Made by a program: the position numbers and the translations under genes. A stretch of 21,939 nucleotides of DNA from a virus. The notes beneath the pieces are model-generated. The model saw only the letters and a program-made list of their open reading frames with translations. It did no database searches and was not told where the DNA came from. Location: positions 1 through 21,939 of the IMG/VR virus record IMGVR_UViG_3300017771_000135; one strand, 5' to 3'. This document shows positions 1,040-21,050 of this stretch, piece after piece; the first letter of the stretch is position 1, and each line of letters begins with the position of its first letter.

Positions 1040-4000
1040 CTATTTTTTAGAAGCTAGTCCACCTCGCTTCATCTTCTTTTTCTTGGTTGATTTTTTTACG
1101 GCGTCTTTCATTAGTTGTTCATTACTCATCAAACCGCCCTTGTTTTCGTCAAAGTAACCAGAGTCAACCATTTCTTGCGCTTCACGAACAGCAGTGTCAA
1201 TAATTGAACCACGTTCAAAGCCTGTATCGCTACTGTCGTCGCGGCGACCAAACGCCTCTTCACGTGCGCGTGAACCGACAGCTTCTTCTTGTGCGCGTTC
1301 AATTCTGTCTTTTTCCGCCTTTTCTCTAACTTTTCGCGCTGCTTCGTCTGCCGCTTTTTCCCTTTGCGCCTTACGTGCTGCTTCTCTACGGGCTTCAATT
1401 TCTCTTCTTTGTTGAGCCTGTTTTCTAGCAGAAGCAAATCTGTCTACGACGCCTATCACATTGCCTTCTTCATCAAATATGTCTTTTTCACGTTTCCGTT
1501 TTGCCGCTATGATATCTGGATCAGACGCTTCTTGATCACGAGCCTCTCTAAAAATTTCTCTTGTTTTAGTATAGTCTGTTCCGGGTGCCTTTATTTCGGC
1601 TCTAACAGTTTTCCATTGTTTTCCGGTAATATATATTTCGTCGTCACCGTCCTTTAGCATAATCGTTGCATCATCAGGAACTTTACCACTCAAAACTTGG
1701 CCTACACCTACAAGACCAAAACCCATGCCGTCTAAGTAATTAACACCATAAGTTTTGCTCTTACCTTCGCCGTCAAAGTCCAATAATCCAATTCTAGCTG
1801 AATCGTTGCCATACTGGTCTATTAAGGCTTGTCGTCTACGGGCATCATCATCTTCTTTGCCGGGATCGTCAAGAACCTGTTCTGTTTGCACAGTTGTAGT
1901 CGGCGTCTCAGGAACCACCTCTTTAGGTACATAGTCTTCCTTGCGTACAAAGCCCTGTGGAATTTCTGTCACACCGGGAATGAATGTAATTGTACGCTCT
2001 TCACCAGTTTCTTCGTTGACAATTACAATTGTTGTAGGTGCTGTTCCTTCTGGTGGTTTTATGAACTCACTGGCAGTAGGCAGTGTTTGGGGTGCTTGAT
2101 ACACAGGCGTTGCTTGTTGTTCTGGACGCGCAATAGGTGCCATCTCAATAGGAGATGCGGCCATGCCCACTTGTGTCTGTCCAGCTTGAAACTGTGGTGC
2201 TTGATATGTCACACCAGTATTTGGATCATTTCCGAATACAACACCGCCTGTATTATACTCTTTATCTTCGTCGTTGTCAACACCTTCAGAGCCGTCAACA
2301 ATAATTAAATCTGTAATACCAAAGGGAAGATCGTCAGGCATGGTGGCTTCATCGCTGTTGCCCATCTGCCCCATCTCTTCCATCATCTTGAGGCCCATCT
2401 TAGCTTCTTGCCGCATCATCATTAGCTTTTCAAGACCGATGTAACGTACCACGTCAGCCGGAAATACAAACTCGCCCTCACTCAGTTGGGCAGGAATATC
2501 ATCACGCACTTCTTCTTGTGATGAACCCGGTGGTACATCGTTGCCAGACACAGGGTCTTCAGTGCCACCATCTTGTTCTAAACCACCGTCTTTAAGAAAG
2601 CCGCCACTCTGCATTTTTTTGGGTTTGTCCATACCTACTTCGGCAACTTGATAATCATCCATAAATAGTTCCATCTGTTTTTGCATTGGTACTGCTCCAC
2701 CTTCTTGCAGCATCAAGCCGCCTTTATTTTTCATAAATTCAGGACTACTCTCTGTCATCCCGCCAAACAAACCTTTTACTTGGTTTGGTTCAAGTAACAT
2801 GTAGCTATCCGCAAAACGACTGTTCATGTCAATTTCAGCAGGATCAATTTCGCCACGTTGTGCGCGTTGTATTTGTTCTACCAACTCATCTATGTTTTCG
2901 TTTGCTGTGCCTTCGTACTCATTGCGATACACAAATGAGTCGTAGCCATTTTTATTTGCTGTCTCTTTAAGTGTGTTAAACCATGCAATACGATCTTCTT
3001 GGCTGTTTATAGTATCTAGTCCACGACGCTTTGCACCATGCGCTTCTAAAACAATATCCCGCCACAAACCTTCATCCATGCCAGCCCTCATGGCATCTGG
3101 GAGCATGGTATATGTTTCACCGTCTACTTTTACTTTTGGTGCTTTGGCAAATAAAGCAGCATCACTCTCATCACCTTTTAAAAATTTTATTCTTTGTAAG
3201 TCACTAGATGCTACAGAAAGATTTGCCAGCCAGCTACCGGGAACTTTGAAGTTACTCATATCGACAATACGAGCAGGTTTCAAATCCGCTTTGAGAACCA
3301 TAGGAAGGATACGTTCACCCTTCACCATTTGTTCTGCTAGTTCTGGATTATAATTTGTTTGTGTAGAACCTCTAGCTGTTGCTTGTTGCGCTGTGCCAAC
3401 ATGAAAACCTATATCGCTGGTGCCACTGCCTATTACATCTGCCGTGTCAAAGTCTGCTTTTGTTAAATGAAAAACACGACTGGACTCGTTGTTTGGATCG
3501 TACCCCATGCGAGGTGCCGGTGCATCTGTTGTTTCTGCTGCCTTTAACTCTGCTAGTGTAGGTAAGTCGGGAGTACCTGCTTCGTCATTTAATTTTTTAA
3601 CTTCGTCTGGCTCAAGGACTCTATTGACTTTCATCTCACCACTAATAAGCCAGTTGCCTTGCATATTAGGATTAGTTTTATATCTGTAGTATCCACCGGA
3701 AGGAAGTTGATCTGTAATCTGTGCTTCCTTCACATTTAACAATCCTTTACGCTCTCCTGATTTTACAGTAGATGCGTTTGAATCTGCTACAGATTGCCAG
3801 TCAGTGTCTGCTGGCATTTCAACTTCTGCCCATACCTGATCATCTGATCTGTACTTTTGGCCTTTATATTCTAATCCAATGTGAGGAGCAGCGGGTGAAT
3901 CTCCTGCATGAAATCCGGGCCTCAAAGCCACAGCTTTTACTGTTTTAGCTTTAGACCCCGCAGGAAGAAAACCCTTTTCAATAAGGATATCTCGTGTAGC

Positions 4001-4528
4001 CTGATCTGGAATTGTGATATTGTCACCAGTTCCCTTTTTGTCTCCCGTTCCTTTAGACGGCACATATTTTTTACCATTAGGAGCAGTAAACACAGATTCA
4101 GGAATTACAGCAGAAATAAATTCCCCTTGTGGTATTTTACTGTCTGCATCTACAAACAGAGGATATAGGTTTCCATCTTCACCTTTTGTGAATAGTTTGT
4201 ATGCTTTTACCGTTTTATTGGGTTTTAAAGCGCGAATACCTCTTCCAACTGCATCACCAAACACAGGCACAACACCTGCTAAAGTAGCCGCGCCTTCAAT
4301 ACCTGCACCAACATAGTCTCCTTCATCAAGAGCATCTGACGTGCGTTTTATACCAATTGCTTCACCCAAAAAGGGTGCAGACTCTGCAGCAAACATAGCA
4401 ACATCTTTAGCCGTGTAACCACCCTCTTCTATTTGACGCTGTGCGCCTTTAGAACGACGACGAGGATTGCCTCTTACACTAGATTGTGGAATAGCTATAT
4501 CTGTTTGTTCGTTAACGCTACGATCCAT
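1040..4528 (-). CDS. Large multidomain virion-region protein with polyvalent and ADP-ribosyltransferase-like domains
   Basis: This 1162-aa protein starts inside the end of the preceding gene (11-nt overlap). Residues 40-100 contain small-residue-rich hydrophobic stretches (AGIEGAATLAGVVPVFGDAV). Residues about 107-315 (KAYKLFTKGEDGNLYPLFVD, ALRPGFHAGDSPAAPHIG, GGYYRYKTNPNMQGNWLISG) resemble a domain I recall from large proteins of mobile elements. Residues about 350-590 have the layout of a phage ART-like domain: VFHLTKADFDTAD, DIGFHVGTAQQA, NGYDSFVYRNEYEG and the closing DSYMLLEPNQVKG. Residues 600-710 carry GGL/GGF motifs and SEGEFVFPADVVRYIGLEKL, which I associate with marine phage proteins. 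The rest is low-complexity, with a charged helix at about 1020-1130 and the C-terminal motif KKKKMKRGGLASKK. It could be virion-packaged and ejected, but this is inference. Confidence 0.75.
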   Translation of the reverse strand: MDRSVNEQTDIAIPQSSVRGNPRRRSKGAQRQIEEGGYTAKDVAMFAAESAPFLGEAIGIKRTSDALDEGDYVGAGIEGAATLAGVVPVFGDAVGRGIRALKPNKTVKAYKLFTKGEDGNLYPLFVDADSKIPQGEFISAVIPESVFTAPNGKKYVPSKGTGDKKGTGDNITIPDQATRDILIEKGFLPAGSKAKTVKAVALRPGFHAGDSPAAPHIGLEYKGQKYRSDDQVWAEVEMPADTDWQSVADSNASTVKSGERKGLLNVKEAQITDQLPSGGYYRYKTNPNMQGNWLISGEMKVNRVLEPDEVKKLNDEAGTPDLPTLAELKAAETTDAPAPRMGYDPNNESSRVFHLTKADFDTADVIGSGTSDIGFHVGTAQQATARGSTQTNYNPELAEQMVKGERILPMVLKADLKPARIVDMSNFKVPGSWLANLSVASSDLQRIKFLKGDESDAALFAKAPKVKVDGETYTMLPDAMRAGMDEGLWRDIVLEAHGAKRRGLDTINSQEDRIAWFNTLKETANKNGYDSFVYRNEYEGTANENIDELVEQIQRAQRGEIDPAEIDMNSRFADSYMLLEPNQVKGLFGGMTESSPEFMKNKGGLMLQEGGAVPMQKQMELFMDDYQVAEVGMDKPKKMQSGGFLKDGGLEQDGGTEDPVSGNDVPPGSSQEEVRDDIPAQLSEGEFVFPADVVRYIGLEKLMMMRQEAKMGLKMMEEMGQMGNSDEATMPDDLPFGITDLIIVDGSEGVDNDEDKEYNTGGVVFGNDPNTGVTYQAPQFQAGQTQVGMAASPIEMAPIARPEQQATPVYQAPQTLPTASEFIKPPEGTAPTTIVIVNEETGEERTITFIPGVTEIPQGFVRKEDYVPKEVVPETPTTTVQTEQVLDDPGKEDDDARRRQALIDQYGNDSARIGLLDFDGEGKSKTYGVNYLDGMGFGLVGVGQVLSGKVPDDATIMLKDGDDEIYITGKQWKTVRAEIKAPGTDYTKTREIFREARDQEASDPDIIAAKRKREKDIFDEEGNVIGVVDRFASARKQAQQRREIEARREAARKAQREKAADEAARKVREKAEKDRIERAQEEAVGSRAREEAFGRRDDSSDTGFERGSIIDTAVREAQEMVDSGYFDENKGGLMSNEQLMKDAVKKSTKKKKMKRGGLASKK

Positions 4529-11076: not shown

Positions 11077-11358
11077 TTACTTGTAGCCGCCCCCTGCTTT
11101 TTTGTAGGCTGATGCCAGCATCTGGGCTTTACGCGCCGACCACTGTCCGGGTGCGCCGCCTTTGCCGCCAGCTTTGATGCGACTGAACTGCCGCTTCCTC
11201 ATTCCGGGCTTAGTATAGTTGCCAGCTTCATTAACTCTTGATTTGCTCTTAGGCGCACCGCCTTGCGAAAGGCTAACCGTTCTAGTCGGTTTCTTTTTCG
11301 CTGTAGTTTGTGCGGCTTTGGTTTTTTTAGCGGCTGGCTTTTTAGTGACACGGGGCAT
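11077..11358 (-). CDS. Basic small virion-region protein
   Basis: This 93-residue protein has an Ala/Lys/Thr-rich N-terminus (PRVTKKPAAKKTKAAQTTAK) reminiscent of histone-tail-like DNA-binding extensions, then GMRKRQFSRIKAGGKGGAPG and QWSARKAQMLASAYKKAGGG. The RIKAGGKGG-PGQWSARKAQ motif is one I recall in several uncultured marine phage proteins without known function. I chose the ATG at 11358 because AGGAGACAGGAG is directly upstream; an in-frame ATG at 11412 would run into the preceding gene. Its strong positive charge suggests binding to DNA or to an acidic partner. Confidence 0.75.
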   Translation of the reverse strand: MPRVTKKPAAKKTKAAQTTAKKKPTRTVSLSQGGAPKSKSRVNEAGNYTKPGMRKRQFSRIKAGGKGGAPGQWSARKAQMLASAYKKAGGGYK

Positions 11359-11368
11359 CTCCTGTCTC

Positions 11369-11728
11369 CTATCTCGCTGGGTCAAAAAATTCTTCACAGG
11401 CAGTAGTAACAACTAGCTTACTAGCTGTACCTGCTGTGCATTTGATAATGTCACCTGCATGAAGATACAGGGGTCTGTCTACAGTAAATATAGACTCGTA
11501 TGACCCGCCCGCAATATTGTGAGCAGTCAACAAGTCATATTCTGCATTATCATCTGCATGAAAAAGGTGTAGGCTCAAAGTCACGTTACCTGTGTGATTA
11601 TTACTTACAAACAAATTCTCCAAGTGTGAAGAGAAGTTTGCAGGTACGGTGTACACATTCGTCTTGTTAGTATTACCTAACGCAACTACCTCTGTACGGA
11701 ACTTAGAACCCGATTGTAATACTGGCAT
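11369..11728 (-). CDS. Putative beta-rich virion decoration protein
   Basis: This 119-residue protein (MPVLQSGSKFRTEVVALGNT...) is rich in beta-forming and Asn/Thr residues: NVYTVPANFSSHLENLFVSN, GNVTLSLHLFHADDNAEYDL and YLHAGDIIKCTAGTASKLVV. The pattern fits a small jelly-roll-like decoration or fibre-attachment domain, and I recall similar small proteins near structural genes of marine phages. I take the ATG at 11728, with GGGAAAG nearby; an earlier ATG at 11761 would lengthen the overlap with the SET gene to 59 nt. Function is inference from composition and context. Confidence 0.65.
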   Translation of the reverse strand: MPVLQSGSKFRTEVVALGNTNKTNVYTVPANFSSHLENLFVSNNHTGNVTLSLHLFHADDNAEYDLLTAHNIAGGSYESIFTVDRPLYLHAGDIIKCTAGTASKLVVTTACEEFFDPAR

Positions 11729-12077
11729 CTCTACTTTCCCAATACTGCTTTCCGTAATCATGCAGTATTTCTTCGCCCTGCTTTATTTTTTTAAGCGCAA
11801 AAAACTTAACAAAGCGTTCATCTTCATCTTCAACCTCCCACTCAGCGTTTGGACTTGCGCTATGATTATACACCATAGCAAAGCCAAGTGGGATGTAATA
11901 CTCTTCTTCGCCGTCATAAGGCGTGTGAAACATGTAGTCATGGAGGACACACTCATCTCCCACGTCAGTATAATCCGCGACCAGATAAGGACACAACTCA
12001 ATTGTATCTCCTTGAGCATAGTCCCTATCTGCGAAAACACCAAGTCCATGTATTTCCGAATCTGCAACATATGGCAT
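11703..12077 (-). CDS. SET-domain protein (putative lysine methyltransferase)
   Basis: This 124-residue protein is little more than a SET domain, the fold of S-adenosylmethionine-dependent lysine methyltransferases. The diagnostic pieces are in order: G-x-G in HGLGVFADRDYAQGD (residues 10-24), the knot motif YNHSASPN (70-77) and GEEILHDYGKQYW (101-113) with the catalytic-type Tyr (Y108). It resembles minimal viral SET proteins and has no pre-SET or post-SET Cys cluster. Its ATG overlaps the stop of the lysine-rich repeat peptide gene (TAATG), so the two are translated together, suggesting but not proving that this peptide is a substrate. Some SET proteins lack activity, so the enzymatic role is unproven. 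Confidence 0.88.
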   Translation of the reverse strand: MPYVADSEIHGLGVFADRDYAQGDTIELCPYLVADYTDVGDECVLHDYMFHTPYDGEEEYYIPLGFAMVYNHSASPNAEWEVEDEDERFVKFFALKKIKQGEEILHDYGKQYWESRDASITIGF

Positions 12078-12211
12078 TACTTCTTCTTTTTTGCCATACC
12101 GCCGCGCATCATTTTCTTTTTAGGCATACCGCCACCGCGCATCTTTTTCATGCCCATGCCGCCGCCACGCATCATTTTCTTTTTAGCCATCTTAGCTTTG
12201 CCCATTGCCAT
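12077..12211 (-). CDS. 44-aa Lys/Met/Gly-rich repeat peptide
   Basis: This tiny ORF encodes 44 residues made almost only of Lys, Met, Gly and Arg. It has three copies of a MRGG-type unit (KKKMMRGGGM, KKMRGGGM, KKKMMRGGMA) and ends in KKKK. It starts at ATG 12211 with AGGAGATT upstream, overlaps the end of the 190-aa gene by 20 nt and ends in TAATG with the SET gene. The MMRGGMA string recurs exactly in the 128-aa protein at 13005-13391, and a related KMKRGGLA closes the 1162-aa protein. It is probably an unstructured polycation, possibly virion-packed with DNA. Confidence 0.75.
   Translation of the reverse strand: MAMGKAKMAKKKMMRGGGMGMKKMRGGGMPKKKMMRGGMAKKKK
12105..12186. repeat. Direct repeat of 19 bp inside the repeat-peptide gene
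   Basis: CGCATCATTTTCTTTTTAG occurs identically at 12105-12123 and 12168-12186, offset by 63 nt (21 codons, in frame). It encodes the KKKMMR units and suggests internal duplication of the MRGG module. Confidence 0.85.
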
Positions 12212-12764
12212 CTCTTAATCTCCTTCTGTCAAGCACTAAAGCATCGTATACTTCTTCTGGAAAGTGTTCATAGTAATTAGACTTTTCCAGATATAGGGCT
12301 GCATCGTCTAGTTTAGATAATAACTGAACAAAGACCATACAGTAGGACAGGCTGTCGTCCGTTACGTCGTCATCGACAAGGAAATCAAGACCAGCCTCTG
12401 TAGCGTCGTAGTCAGGGTGGAACACCATCAAGTGTAAATCCATACCGGCCACAGACGCCAACTCATTAATGCCATCGCAATACCCATCTAGGTATTCCAT
12501 ATCTGGCAAATCTTCTTCTGCCCACACTACAATATCATAGTCATGGTCATTGAACTTACGGACCTCTTCCATCAGCCCGTCTAGTCCTGTATTGATACTG
12601 AACACTACCTTATTATCAGCCCATGCCTTTCTGGCATAAGGGCAAGGTGGCAGACCATTTAGTTTAGCATTCGGTACTTCTAAAAAGTCTTTTGACCACG
12701 TGCGTATGTCTTGCTCAACTCTATGCACGTGGGTTTCGTTTACGAGCAGTTCGTGTACGTGCAT
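12192..12764 (-). CDS. Conserved phage protein with CPYA motif
   Basis: This 190-residue acidic protein has NGLPPCPYARKAWADNKVVF, then DYDIVVWAEEDLPDMEYLDG, LHLMVFHPDYDATEAGLDFL and a C-terminal helical part (ALYLEKSNYYEHFPEEVYDA). I recall a phage family with the same order of CPYA, an acidic segment, a 'V-HPD' segment and 'LEKT-YY', found beside virion accessory genes, without a known function. The alternating hydrophobic strands and helices suggest an alpha/beta fold. It overlaps the upstream basic gene by 44 nt and the downstream repeat-peptide gene by 20 nt. The start at ATG 12764 is the only good one; a few residues either way remain uncertain. Confidence 0.7.
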   Translation of the reverse strand: MHVHELLVNETHVHRVEQDIRTWSKDFLEVPNAKLNGLPPCPYARKAWADNKVVFSINTGLDGLMEEVRKFNDHDYDIVVWAEEDLPDMEYLDGYCDGINELASVAGMDLHLMVFHPDYDATEAGLDFLVDDDVTDDSLSYCMVFVQLLSKLDDAALYLEKSNYYEHFPEEVYDALVLDRRRLRDGNGQS

Positions 12765-13005
12765 AAGACCTGTTTTGTGAGGCTGTCTTCACTGCTAGAT
12801 TGCCACGGCGATTGTCGCGTGGATTACCATTACGATGTGCGACATCCTTACCTGCAACAGCTACGCCAGCCTTCTTCAGCTTATTACGCGCCGCATTACG
12901 GCTGGTTCTACGCTTGACCTGTTCTGGTCTGGCGTGGTATCTGTCGTACTCCTTACGGTAGTCCCGTTTAGGACGCGCAGGTCTTTTGGGTACACGAGGT
13001 GCCAT
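12721..13005 (-). CDS. Basic HNH-like small protein
   Basis: This 94-residue, Arg/Lys-rich protein contains KRDYRKEYDRYHARPEQVKR and then DVAHRNGNPRDNRRGNLAVK plus TASQNRSYARTRTARKRN. The H-NGN--DN---NL-------NRS segment (residues 57-80) is the core pattern of HNH nucleases, but the usual zinc-binding cysteines are absent. I remember related small proteins in the structural region of marine phages, so it may be a DNA-binding virion protein on an HNH scaffold rather than a homing enzyme. An HNH nuclease working with terminase is the alternative. Confidence 0.7.
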   Translation of the reverse strand: MAPRVPKRPARPKRDYRKEYDRYHARPEQVKRRTSRNAARNKLKKAGVAVAGKDVAHRNGNPRDNRRGNLAVKTASQNRSYARTRTARKRNPRA

Positions 13006-13391
13006 TAGCTGTTTACGATTTTGTTGTACGCAGCGCGTCCTCTGGGGCCACTAGCGCGAAGCGCACGTAGACCAGCATTGTCTTGAACAGCCCCGCCAGC
13101 AGAGTACATGTGTACTTTGCCGTTAGCCATACCGCCCCGCATCATCTGTGCTTTTTTGCTACGGGCTTGGTTACGGCGATTGCGTTCAAACTCTTCAGTC
13201 TCTTTCATCTGCTGCTTGAACTCTGCTTCAGTAGCCATGCCAGAAGGAAGTGCGACACCAGCTTGCTTCAGCTTGCGACGGAGATGCTTTTGCGCCTCAA
13301 CCTCGTCAAGACCATTCTTTCTGGCAAACGCCATTGCCTCATCACGAATTTTGTCAAAAGCTGGAGAAGTCTCTGAAATTTTTATAGGCAT
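13005..13391 (-). CDS. MRGG-motif virion-region protein
   Basis: This 128-residue basic protein has a helical N-terminal half (FDKIRDEAMAFARKNGLDEV, with EAQKHLRRKLKQAGV) and a flexible part SKKAQMMRGGMANGKVHMYS followed by AGGAVQDNAGLRALRASGPR. The string MMRGGMA is shared exactly with the 44-aa peptide at 12077-12211. Its ATG overlaps the previous stop (TAATG). I recall similar 'RGGMAN--V--YS-GG' tails in marine phages. No function is known to me; a small internal virion protein is the best guess. Confidence 0.7.
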   Translation of the reverse strand: MPIKISETSPAFDKIRDEAMAFARKNGLDEVEAQKHLRRKLKQAGVALPSGMATEAEFKQQMKETEEFERNRRNQARSKKAQMMRGGMANGKVHMYSAGGAVQDNAGLRALRASGPRGRAAYNKIVNS

Positions 13392-13936
13392 TATTTTTTC
13401 TCCGATTTCAGTTTAGTTGTGTACTTCTTGCCATTCCACGTGAAAGTCTTTGCACCTTTCTTGCGGAAGTGAGCAAATGCTTCTTTGAATGGAACACCAC
13501 CTCTGGAAACACCGACGTTGAACTTTTTCGCCGGATCAGCGCCTTTGTTGGTTGCGCTTGGAGCCGCTTTTTTCTTAGGCGTAGGCATACGCTTCGCTGC
13601 AGCACCTTCCTTGGATACAGGTGTGGACTTCTTGCGGTCTGTTGGCTTTGCCAACGAACTACGGATACGCGCCAGCGCATCTGCAGCCCTCTGACCACCA
13701 CTAGGCTTCTTTGTAGTCGTTGCCGTCGTACCAGAAGTCGGTTTGTCCAGCGCGCCCTTTACACGAGACAAAGCAGCGGATACTTTTTTGTCCGGTCCTG
13801 CCGCTTTCAACATCTTACGAATTTGACCTTCTGTCATGCCCTGTTCCAGAGCAGTGCCGACAATGCCTTCACTGAGACTAGGAAACGATGCCTTCAGCCT
13901 ACGGATTGCCAGCTTATGAGATTCTTTCATAGCCAT
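13391..13936 (-). CDS. Basic Ala/Lys/Pro-rich protein with conserved C-terminal motif
   Basis: This 181-residue protein has an N-terminal helical domain (KLAIRRLKASFPSLSEGIVG; EQGMTEGQIRKMLKAAG), a long disordered Pro/Lys/Thr/Ser-rich linker (about residues 60-135) and a C-terminal motif GVPFKEAFAHFRKKGAKTFT then WNGKKYTTKLKSEKK. The 'SF-EAFA-AR-AG-KTFTWNGK-Y-T' ending is one I recall from many tailed phage structural-region proteins of unknown role. I chose the ATG at 13936, with GGGA about 10 nt upstream; an alternative longer frame back to 14116 lies within the preceding gene. Possibly virion-associated. Confidence 0.7.
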   Translation of the reverse strand: MAMKESHKLAIRRLKASFPSLSEGIVGTALEQGMTEGQIRKMLKAAGPDKKVSAALSRVKGALDKPTSGTTATTTKKPSGGQRAADALARIRSSLAKPTDRKKSTPVSKEGAAAKRMPTPKKKAAPSATNKGADPAKKFNVGVSRGGVPFKEAFAHFRKKGAKTFTWNGKKYTTKLKSEKK

Positions 13937-20385: not shown

Positions 20386-20631
20386 ATGAGTGAAGAAAAA
20401 ACAGAATGGGAAATGCGCTTTGAAGAGGCGTCAGAAACATGGGAAAAATTTAGTGACCATCAACAACGGTGTGTGCTAGAATTACTAAAAGCATGGGTGC
20501 CTATTCGTACCCGTGTTGGTGAGTTGTGTTCCATTGAATATGACGATCTGAAAGCAGTTGATACAGCGTGGTGGAAACTAAAGAACGCCGTTGTTGATAA
20601 GAATATAGAAATAAAGGAGTGGGATTACTAA
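20386..20631 (+). CDS. 81-aa acidic helical hypothetical protein
   Basis: MSEEKTEWEMRFEEASETWE is charged and helical, followed by KFSDHQQRCVLELLKAWVPI and a helix ending in a Trp/Asp/Tyr tail. AAGGAG lies upstream of the ATG and the TAA overlaps the ATG of the next gene (TAATG), so it is coupled to the SleB-type hydrolase. No family recognised. Confidence 0.7.
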   Translation: MSEEKTEWEMRFEEASETWEKFSDHQQRCVLELLKAWVPIRTRVGELCSIEYDDLKAVDTAWWKLKNAVVDKNIEIKEWDY

Positions 20632-21050
20632 TGTTTGAAGCAGCAATTATGTGCCTTGCATTGAACATCTACCATGAGGCCCGTGACCAGCCCTTCATTG
20701 GGCAGGTTGCGGTAGCCCAAGTGGTGATGAACCGTGTGCGTGACGACAGGTATCCTGACGACGTGTGTGGTGTAGTTAAACAAGGCCCAACCTACTCATG
20801 GAGAGAAGACTTCCCCGTGCGTAATCGTTGTCAGTTTAGCTGGTACTGTGATGGCAAGTCAGACAAGACGCCGGATACAGAGGCATTTGAGATAGCCAGA
20901 ATGATCGCCGTGGGCGTCTACAATGGTAATCTTGGAGACTTTGTTGAGGGTGCCACGCATTACCATGCAACCTACGTCCTACCCGAATGGGCAGAAACAA
21001 AATACAAGACAGTTCAAATTGGAGAACATGTATTTTATCGGTGGGACTGA
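20631..21050 (+). CDS. Cell wall hydrolase, SleB/CwlJ type
   Basis: This 139-residue enzyme matches the Hydrolase_2 (SleB/CwlJ) family, which cuts peptidoglycan glycan strands. Its opening LALNIYHEARDQPFIGQVAV (residues 9-28) carries the catalytic-type Glu (E16) of the 'EA----G--AVA-V--NR' signature, followed by AQVVMNRVRDDRYPDDVCGV, RCQFSWYCDGKSD, and the ATHYHA motif near residue 108. No signal peptide is visible. It is coupled to the upstream gene by TAATG and is separate from the late lysis cassette with its GH24 lysozyme. It might help DNA entry, lysis or early wall remodelling. Confidence 0.85.
   Translation: MFEAAIMCLALNIYHEARDQPFIGQVAVAQVVMNRVRDDRYPDDVCGVVKQGPTYSWREDFPVRNRCQFSWYCDGKSDKTPDTEAFEIARMIAVGVYNGNLGDFVEGATHYHATYVLPEWAETKYKTVQIGEHVFYRWD

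Follow-up and report, generated by a model that had tools for sequence, protein, structure and literature searches.

Gene arrangement of the locus

The DNA analyzed is a 21.9-kb IMG/VR fragment, which is referred to in its whole length as the window. Its late operon lies on the minus strand and spans roughly 14.7 kb to 0.1 kb; at around 15-16 kb the GC skew switches sign, matching the direction of transcription. Within this operon a short gene for a lysine-rich repeat peptide is followed by a gene for a SET-domain protein, and the two share one base at their stop and start codons (Table 1). The pair had been picked out by a sequence-only reading of the window, and both open reading frames and the TAATG that joins them were found on the minus strand as described there.

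Table 1. Positions of the genes and other features of the window
Feature	Position	Strand	Basis or remarks
SET-domain protein-lysine methyltransferase (predicted), vSET-like minimal SET, 124 aa	11703..12077	minus	Pfam, phmmer, AlphaFold/Foldseek, motifs
Lys/Met/Gly repeat peptide (KKKMMRGG units), SET-associated type, 44 aa; proposed substrate	12077..12211	minus	ORF, Shine-Dalgarno sequence, purifying selection, conserved family
TAATG overlap of peptide stop and SET start	12075..12079	minus	One shared base
Decor (working name), 120-aa protein downstream of SET	11369..11731	minus	Distant kin in HMO-2011 and CRP-345
190-aa protein, conserved left (upstream) flank of the cassette	12192..12764	minus	phrog_28122; homologues HMO-2011 gp66 and CRP-345 gp78
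Small endonuclease-like protein	12721-13005	minus	HNH_3 (PF13392); upstream of the 190-aa gene
128-aa protein	13005-13391	minus	MRGG-bearing
181-aa Lys-rich protein	13391-13936		Late operon
100-aa protein	11077-11379	minus	phrog_17747
1162-aa protein	1040-4528	minus	Many GG motifs
SleB-like cell-wall hydrolase	20619-21050	plus	TIGR02869, E 1.6e-15, below the family cut-off; plus-strand half

The phage was assigned from its terminase and late gene order. The window TerL is 85.7% identical to that of Puniceispirillum phage HMO-2011 over 100% of the length, and the late genes have homologues in the same order in HMO-2011 and in Roseobacter phage CRP-345. By these sequence criteria the window is from an HMO-2011-type phage, which agrees with the phage origin assumed in the sequence-only reading. 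HMO-2011-type phages are abundant and among the dominant phage groups of the ocean.

The SET protein matched Pfam family PF00856 over the full length of the profile (E 2.9e-14; 53.8 bits against a gathering cut-off of 22.4), and the motifs HGLGVFA, NHSASPN and GEEILHDYG, on which the earlier assignment had been based, are present as described there. The best relative of solved structure detected by sequence was PBCV-1 vSET (phmmer 5e-14), followed by fission yeast Set7 and Plasmodium PFL0690c. A single-sequence AlphaFold model (pLDDT 37) was discarded; the model used was built from an input alignment of 58 related sequences and had a pLDDT of 85.5. Foldseek matched it to vSET, PFL0690c, Set7 and MLL, all at probability 1.00, with PFL0690c and vSET (3kma, TM 0.72/0.84) at the top. 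Residues G13, Y70, N71 and N77 are invariant in the 58 SET sequences, and Y108, G109 and H72 are conserved at 90% or more. The catalytic tyrosine (Y108 of ILHDYG) and the NH(S) motif are kept across the SET clade; we take the catalytic and SAM-binding roles of Y108, the N-H motif and the G-x-G residues to be those of the SET family in general. As judged from sequence and model, this is a protein of the minimal vSET-like class for which lysine methylation is predicted. In phage loci L058 and L068 and in SAR116 loci L212-L225 NHG replaces NHS, and the SAR116 proteins with this substitution retain the remaining active-site motifs. Phage SETs are strongly acidic, with a mean net charge of about -20 over the first 116 aa, compared with -11 to -15 for SAR116 homologues and +1 for residues 9-114 of vSET. 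Such acidity would be in keeping with a polybasic substrate, though it is no more than suggestive.

The peptide of the window, MAMGKAKMAKKKMMRGGGMGMKKMRGGGMPKKKMMRGGMAKKKK, is 44 aa long, and a strong Shine-Dalgarno sequence, AAGGAG, is present just 5′ of the start codon ATG. The gene is conserved in more than 100 contigs. When unique copies were compared over their last 12 codons, synonymous changes made up 77% of the codon differences, compared with 16% expected for random point changes; as the copies are related, this figure should be read as a ratio, not as a test. The Shine-Dalgarno sequence, the conservation and the synonymous excess together mark the peptide as a selected and surely translated gene. 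No family was found for it in Pfam or PHROGs. The junction of peptide and SET is TAATG in 64 SET-bearing copies, and since SET has no clear Shine-Dalgarno sequence of its own, its translational coupling to the peptide is likely.

Several other late proteins are rich in lysine or contain similar motifs. The 100-aa protein, present in several HMO-2011-type phages, has an H1-like Lys/Ala/Pro N-terminus and a conserved C-terminus (GGAPGQWSARKAQMLA..YKKAGGGYK). The 1162-aa protein contains many GG motifs (KNKGGL, KMQSGGF) and ends in KKKKMKRGGLASKK, which resembles the peptide unit, and the 128-aa protein contains the motif AQMMRGGMANGK...MYSAGG. The peptide-unit motif may be a short tag shared by late proteins.

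Occurrence of the peptide and of SET

A scan for the DNA pattern of the peptide revealed at least 119 sites; among the matches listed, 39 have SET in the locus and 80 do not. When the downstream protein, decor, was used as the anchor, 76 loci were obtained, of which 62 contain the peptide and 10 contain SET. Many SET-less phages have the peptide gene joined directly to the decor gene by the same TAATG. HMO-2011 itself encodes a 50-aa peptide, MKGKTKMASKKMMRGGMAAKTSPKRMRGGGMMKAASKKKMMRGGMAKKKK, which is unannotated and lies between gp65 and gp66 (locus L307, approximately positions 50628-50780 of the record, minus strand); it is of the Ser type and there is no SET. CRP-345 gp77 belongs to the same peptide family, and this phage too is without SET; among the cultured HMO-2011-type phages of the collection searched, none carries the SET of the window. 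HMO-2011 infects a host of the SAR116 clade, so host clade alone does not dictate which type of peptide a phage has.

The presence of the peptide in so many SET-less phages, directly abutting decor, makes SET look like an optional insert between an older phage peptide gene and the next gene. Most phages with the peptide lack SET, among the matches listed as well as among the decor-anchored loci, and the idea of the peptide as a dedicated partner of SET was therefore rejected. A SET-specific leader peptide (Met/SAM attenuation) was also discarded, since this peptide lies ahead of many genes other than SET as well. The operon region carries other cargo: a methanesulfonate monooxygenase gene in HMO-2011 and, in L111, a Rieske-type ORF resembling it that follows the peptide.

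The association is much tighter when viewed from SET. Among 71 loci of a first SET scan the peptide ended at the SET start in 62; in eight of the others the DNA upstream was too short, and in one (L063) the decor gene lay in between. The same junction position was seen in 20 of 20 further SET relatives and in all five SETs only about 50% identical to that of the window. Overall, in the HMO-2011-type SET clade the peptide runs up to the SET start in 87 of 88 loci, although these loci are not independent and some are near copies. Entries L063, L129 and L246 represent one contig, in which the order is peptide-decor-SET instead of peptide-SET-decor; its peptide is nonetheless of the K type.

The sequence-only reading had proposed a survey of the gene neighbours of phage SETs, and SET genes of relatives without a Lys-rich neighbour were to count against the link. 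Within HMO-2011-type phages the pairing is borne out by the counts given above, but it does not extend to a general rule, as SAR116 SETs lack such a neighbour and no MRGG peptide was found near SET in 36 loci of other phages. A second group of SETs from viral contigs (L321-L347), many of these contigs longer than 100 kb, likewise lacks neighbours of the Lys-rich MRGG kind.

Chromosomal SETs of SAR116 bacteria are 50-58% identical to the phage SET. Together with the phage SETs and one Nitrospinae sequence they form one group (support 98/97), within which the phage SETs need not be exactly one clade. SAR116 SET loci have common metabolic neighbours, and no Lys-rich ORF was found within 1.5 kb of them. 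The simplest reading of these sequences is that the gene passed from host to phage from SAR116-type bacteria, which are probably the host.

Co-variation of peptide lysines with SET

Peptides from phages with and without SET differ in their repeat units. Among unique peptides, GKAKMA is present in 62 of the 70 from phages that have SET and in none of the 65 from phages that do not, whereas K[MTA]A[SAQG]K is present in none of the 70 and in 45 of the 65; these classes were defined after inspection of the peptides. The difference falls consistently on one position of the unit K[MTAV][AS]xK. With SET, x is Lys in 133 units and Arg in six, that is, Lys or Arg in 139/139. Without SET, x is Ser (33), Lys (31), Ala (17), Pro (11), Gln (11) or Gly (1), so that 73/104 units have one of the five other residues and 31/104 have Lys or Arg. 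K-type units occur in a few SET-less phages as well, for example L107, L115, L145 and L179.

In the phylogeny of the downstream protein there were 18 changes of SET status, six of them forced by supported branches, and the joint distribution was 77 with neither SET nor the K type, five with the K type only, one with SET only and 42 with both. The tree of the upstream protein required nine changes of SET and 12 of peptide type. Supported independent pairs numbered three on the upstream tree (sign test, p ~0.5) and six on the downstream tree (p 0.06). Individual comparisons illustrate the recombination: the downstream protein of the window is identical to that of the SET-less L235/L236, yet their peptides are of different types, and L082 and L174 are 95% identical in the upstream protein, yet differ both in SET status and in peptide type. 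As type follows SET although both flanks recombine, the smallest unit seen moving together is the peptide with SET.

Such co-variation could arise without any interaction, since abutting genes can be inherited together. The fact that the difference falls on one lysine of the repeat unit favours a substrate, and suggests that the peptide is what SET methylates. Of the enzyme-substrate link proposed in the sequence-only reading, the association has thus gained support, short of proof, from the co-variation of amino-acid type with SET, while the peptide has turned out not to be dedicated to SET. There are two readings, that the peptide is the substrate and that the genes move together as a linked pair, and sequence alone cannot choose between them.

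A putative methyltransferase-substrate cassette

Based on the fold, the motifs, the gene overlap, the conservation and the co-variation, we propose a methyltransferase-substrate cassette in HMO-2011-type phages, with a predicted activity, a candidate substrate and a putative purpose; we give it a probability of about 0.5. A SET gene akin to those on SAR116 chromosomes would have been inserted between the pre-existing peptide gene and the next late gene, and SET would be made right after the peptide by translational coupling. It would methylate lysines in the repeated K-M-A-K-K-K units, SET-phage peptides carrying Lys where SET-less relatives mostly have Ser, Ala, Pro or Gln. From its composition and operon position the peptide is a late protein of small size and strongly basic character, probably disordered, which may bind nucleic acid or capsid or serve in packaging, and methylation would tune its interactions. 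This proposal is supported by the SET fold and motifs, by adjacency in 87 of 88 loci across the divergence of SET, by the way in which peptide type follows SET through recombination, by the acidity of SET and by precedents of SETs on basic DNA-binding proteins. It is weakened by the sufficiency of linkage as an explanation, the few supported independent pairs, the post hoc classes, K-type units without SET, the independence of the peptide from SET, the gene order in L063 and the lack of an obvious Lys switch in the 128-aa protein.

The main rival is a host-derived cargo enzyme aimed elsewhere, at a host nucleoid, ribosomal or translation protein, and located at a spot that accepts inserts, with peptide type hitch-hiking as part of a recombining block. 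We regard this as somewhat unlikely, though a serious contender. It fits the closest cellular kin, which are SAR116 chromosomal SETs that sit among metabolic genes and have no Lys-rich gene beside them, as well as the methanesulfonate monooxygenase and Rieske-type genes of the same region, and physical linkage by itself predicts co-inheritance. However, SET begins at the peptide stop codon in nearly every locus over a wide SET divergence, and the association of peptide type with SET survives recombination on either flank; hitch-hiking would leave the consistent placement on one Lys position unexplained. It is improbable that SET acts on other Lys-rich proteins of the operon (for example those of 100 aa and 181 aa, or that of 1162 aa at its C-terminus), the peptide being only one target among several or no target at all. 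Several such proteins are indeed encoded there, some with an MRGG-type motif, but related Lys-rich proteins occur also in SET-less HMO-2011-type phages, and the one motif-bearing protein compared, that of 128 aa, had no obvious Lys switch with SET among its relatives. A catalytically dead SET, or one serving merely as a binding partner (chaperone) of the peptide, could account for NHG in some relatives and for the very acidic composition, but is highly improbable given the conserved catalytic Tyr, N-H motif and G-x-G and the otherwise complete motifs of SAR116 SETs with NHG.

SET proteins have already been annotated in phages. Those of Stenotrophomonas phage Moby, of a 735-kb uncultured phage and of further viral contigs are recognisable as SETs, but are distant and without an MRGG-type Lys-rich neighbour. 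Chromosomal SETs of SAR116/Puniceispirillum group with the phage SETs, but differ in their metabolic surroundings, without a Lys-rich neighbour, and in being less acidic. Bacteria lack histone H3. The vSET protein (PBCV-1 A612L; PDB 1n3j, 3kma) targets histone H3K27 of its algal hosts (PMC3089700). The phage SET resembles it in minimal single-domain viral form, fold and motifs, with 33% identity in structural alignment, but belongs to a bacterial virus, has a very acidic composition and has its gene coupled to one for a Lys-rich peptide, so the likeness is one of vSET-like architecture only. Further related systems are archaeal Go1-SET, which methylates MC1-alpha (PMC3980110), and a chlamydial SET that binds Hc1/Hc2 (PMC3089700). 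These are also non-eukaryotic SETs on the organism's own DNA-binding proteins, although enzyme and partner are cellular and neither a tandem-repeat phage peptide nor a cassette is involved. SET most likely methylates lysines of the peptide, as Go1-SET does MC1-alpha.

In the open-licence papers searched we found neither the cassette, the peptide family nor the lysine co-variation, and no mention of SET in papers on HMO-2011-type phages. The locus may, with slightly less confidence than we attach to the cassette itself, represent a phage-encoded system of protein methylation, in which a SET acquired from bacteria and a tandem-repeat basic peptide, its lysine pattern co-evolving, would provide a histone-tail-like modification of the phage's own protein. 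Histones have been the main subject of work on lysine methylation by SET proteins. At this locus the natural variation, with phages that have or lack SET and peptides that have or lack the extra lysines, points to a specific substrate and even a residue, so that the prediction can be tested with synthetic peptides. The analysis has also revealed a small gene that is widespread in HMO-2011-type phages but has been overlooked, and that lacks annotation even in HMO-2011, the type phage.
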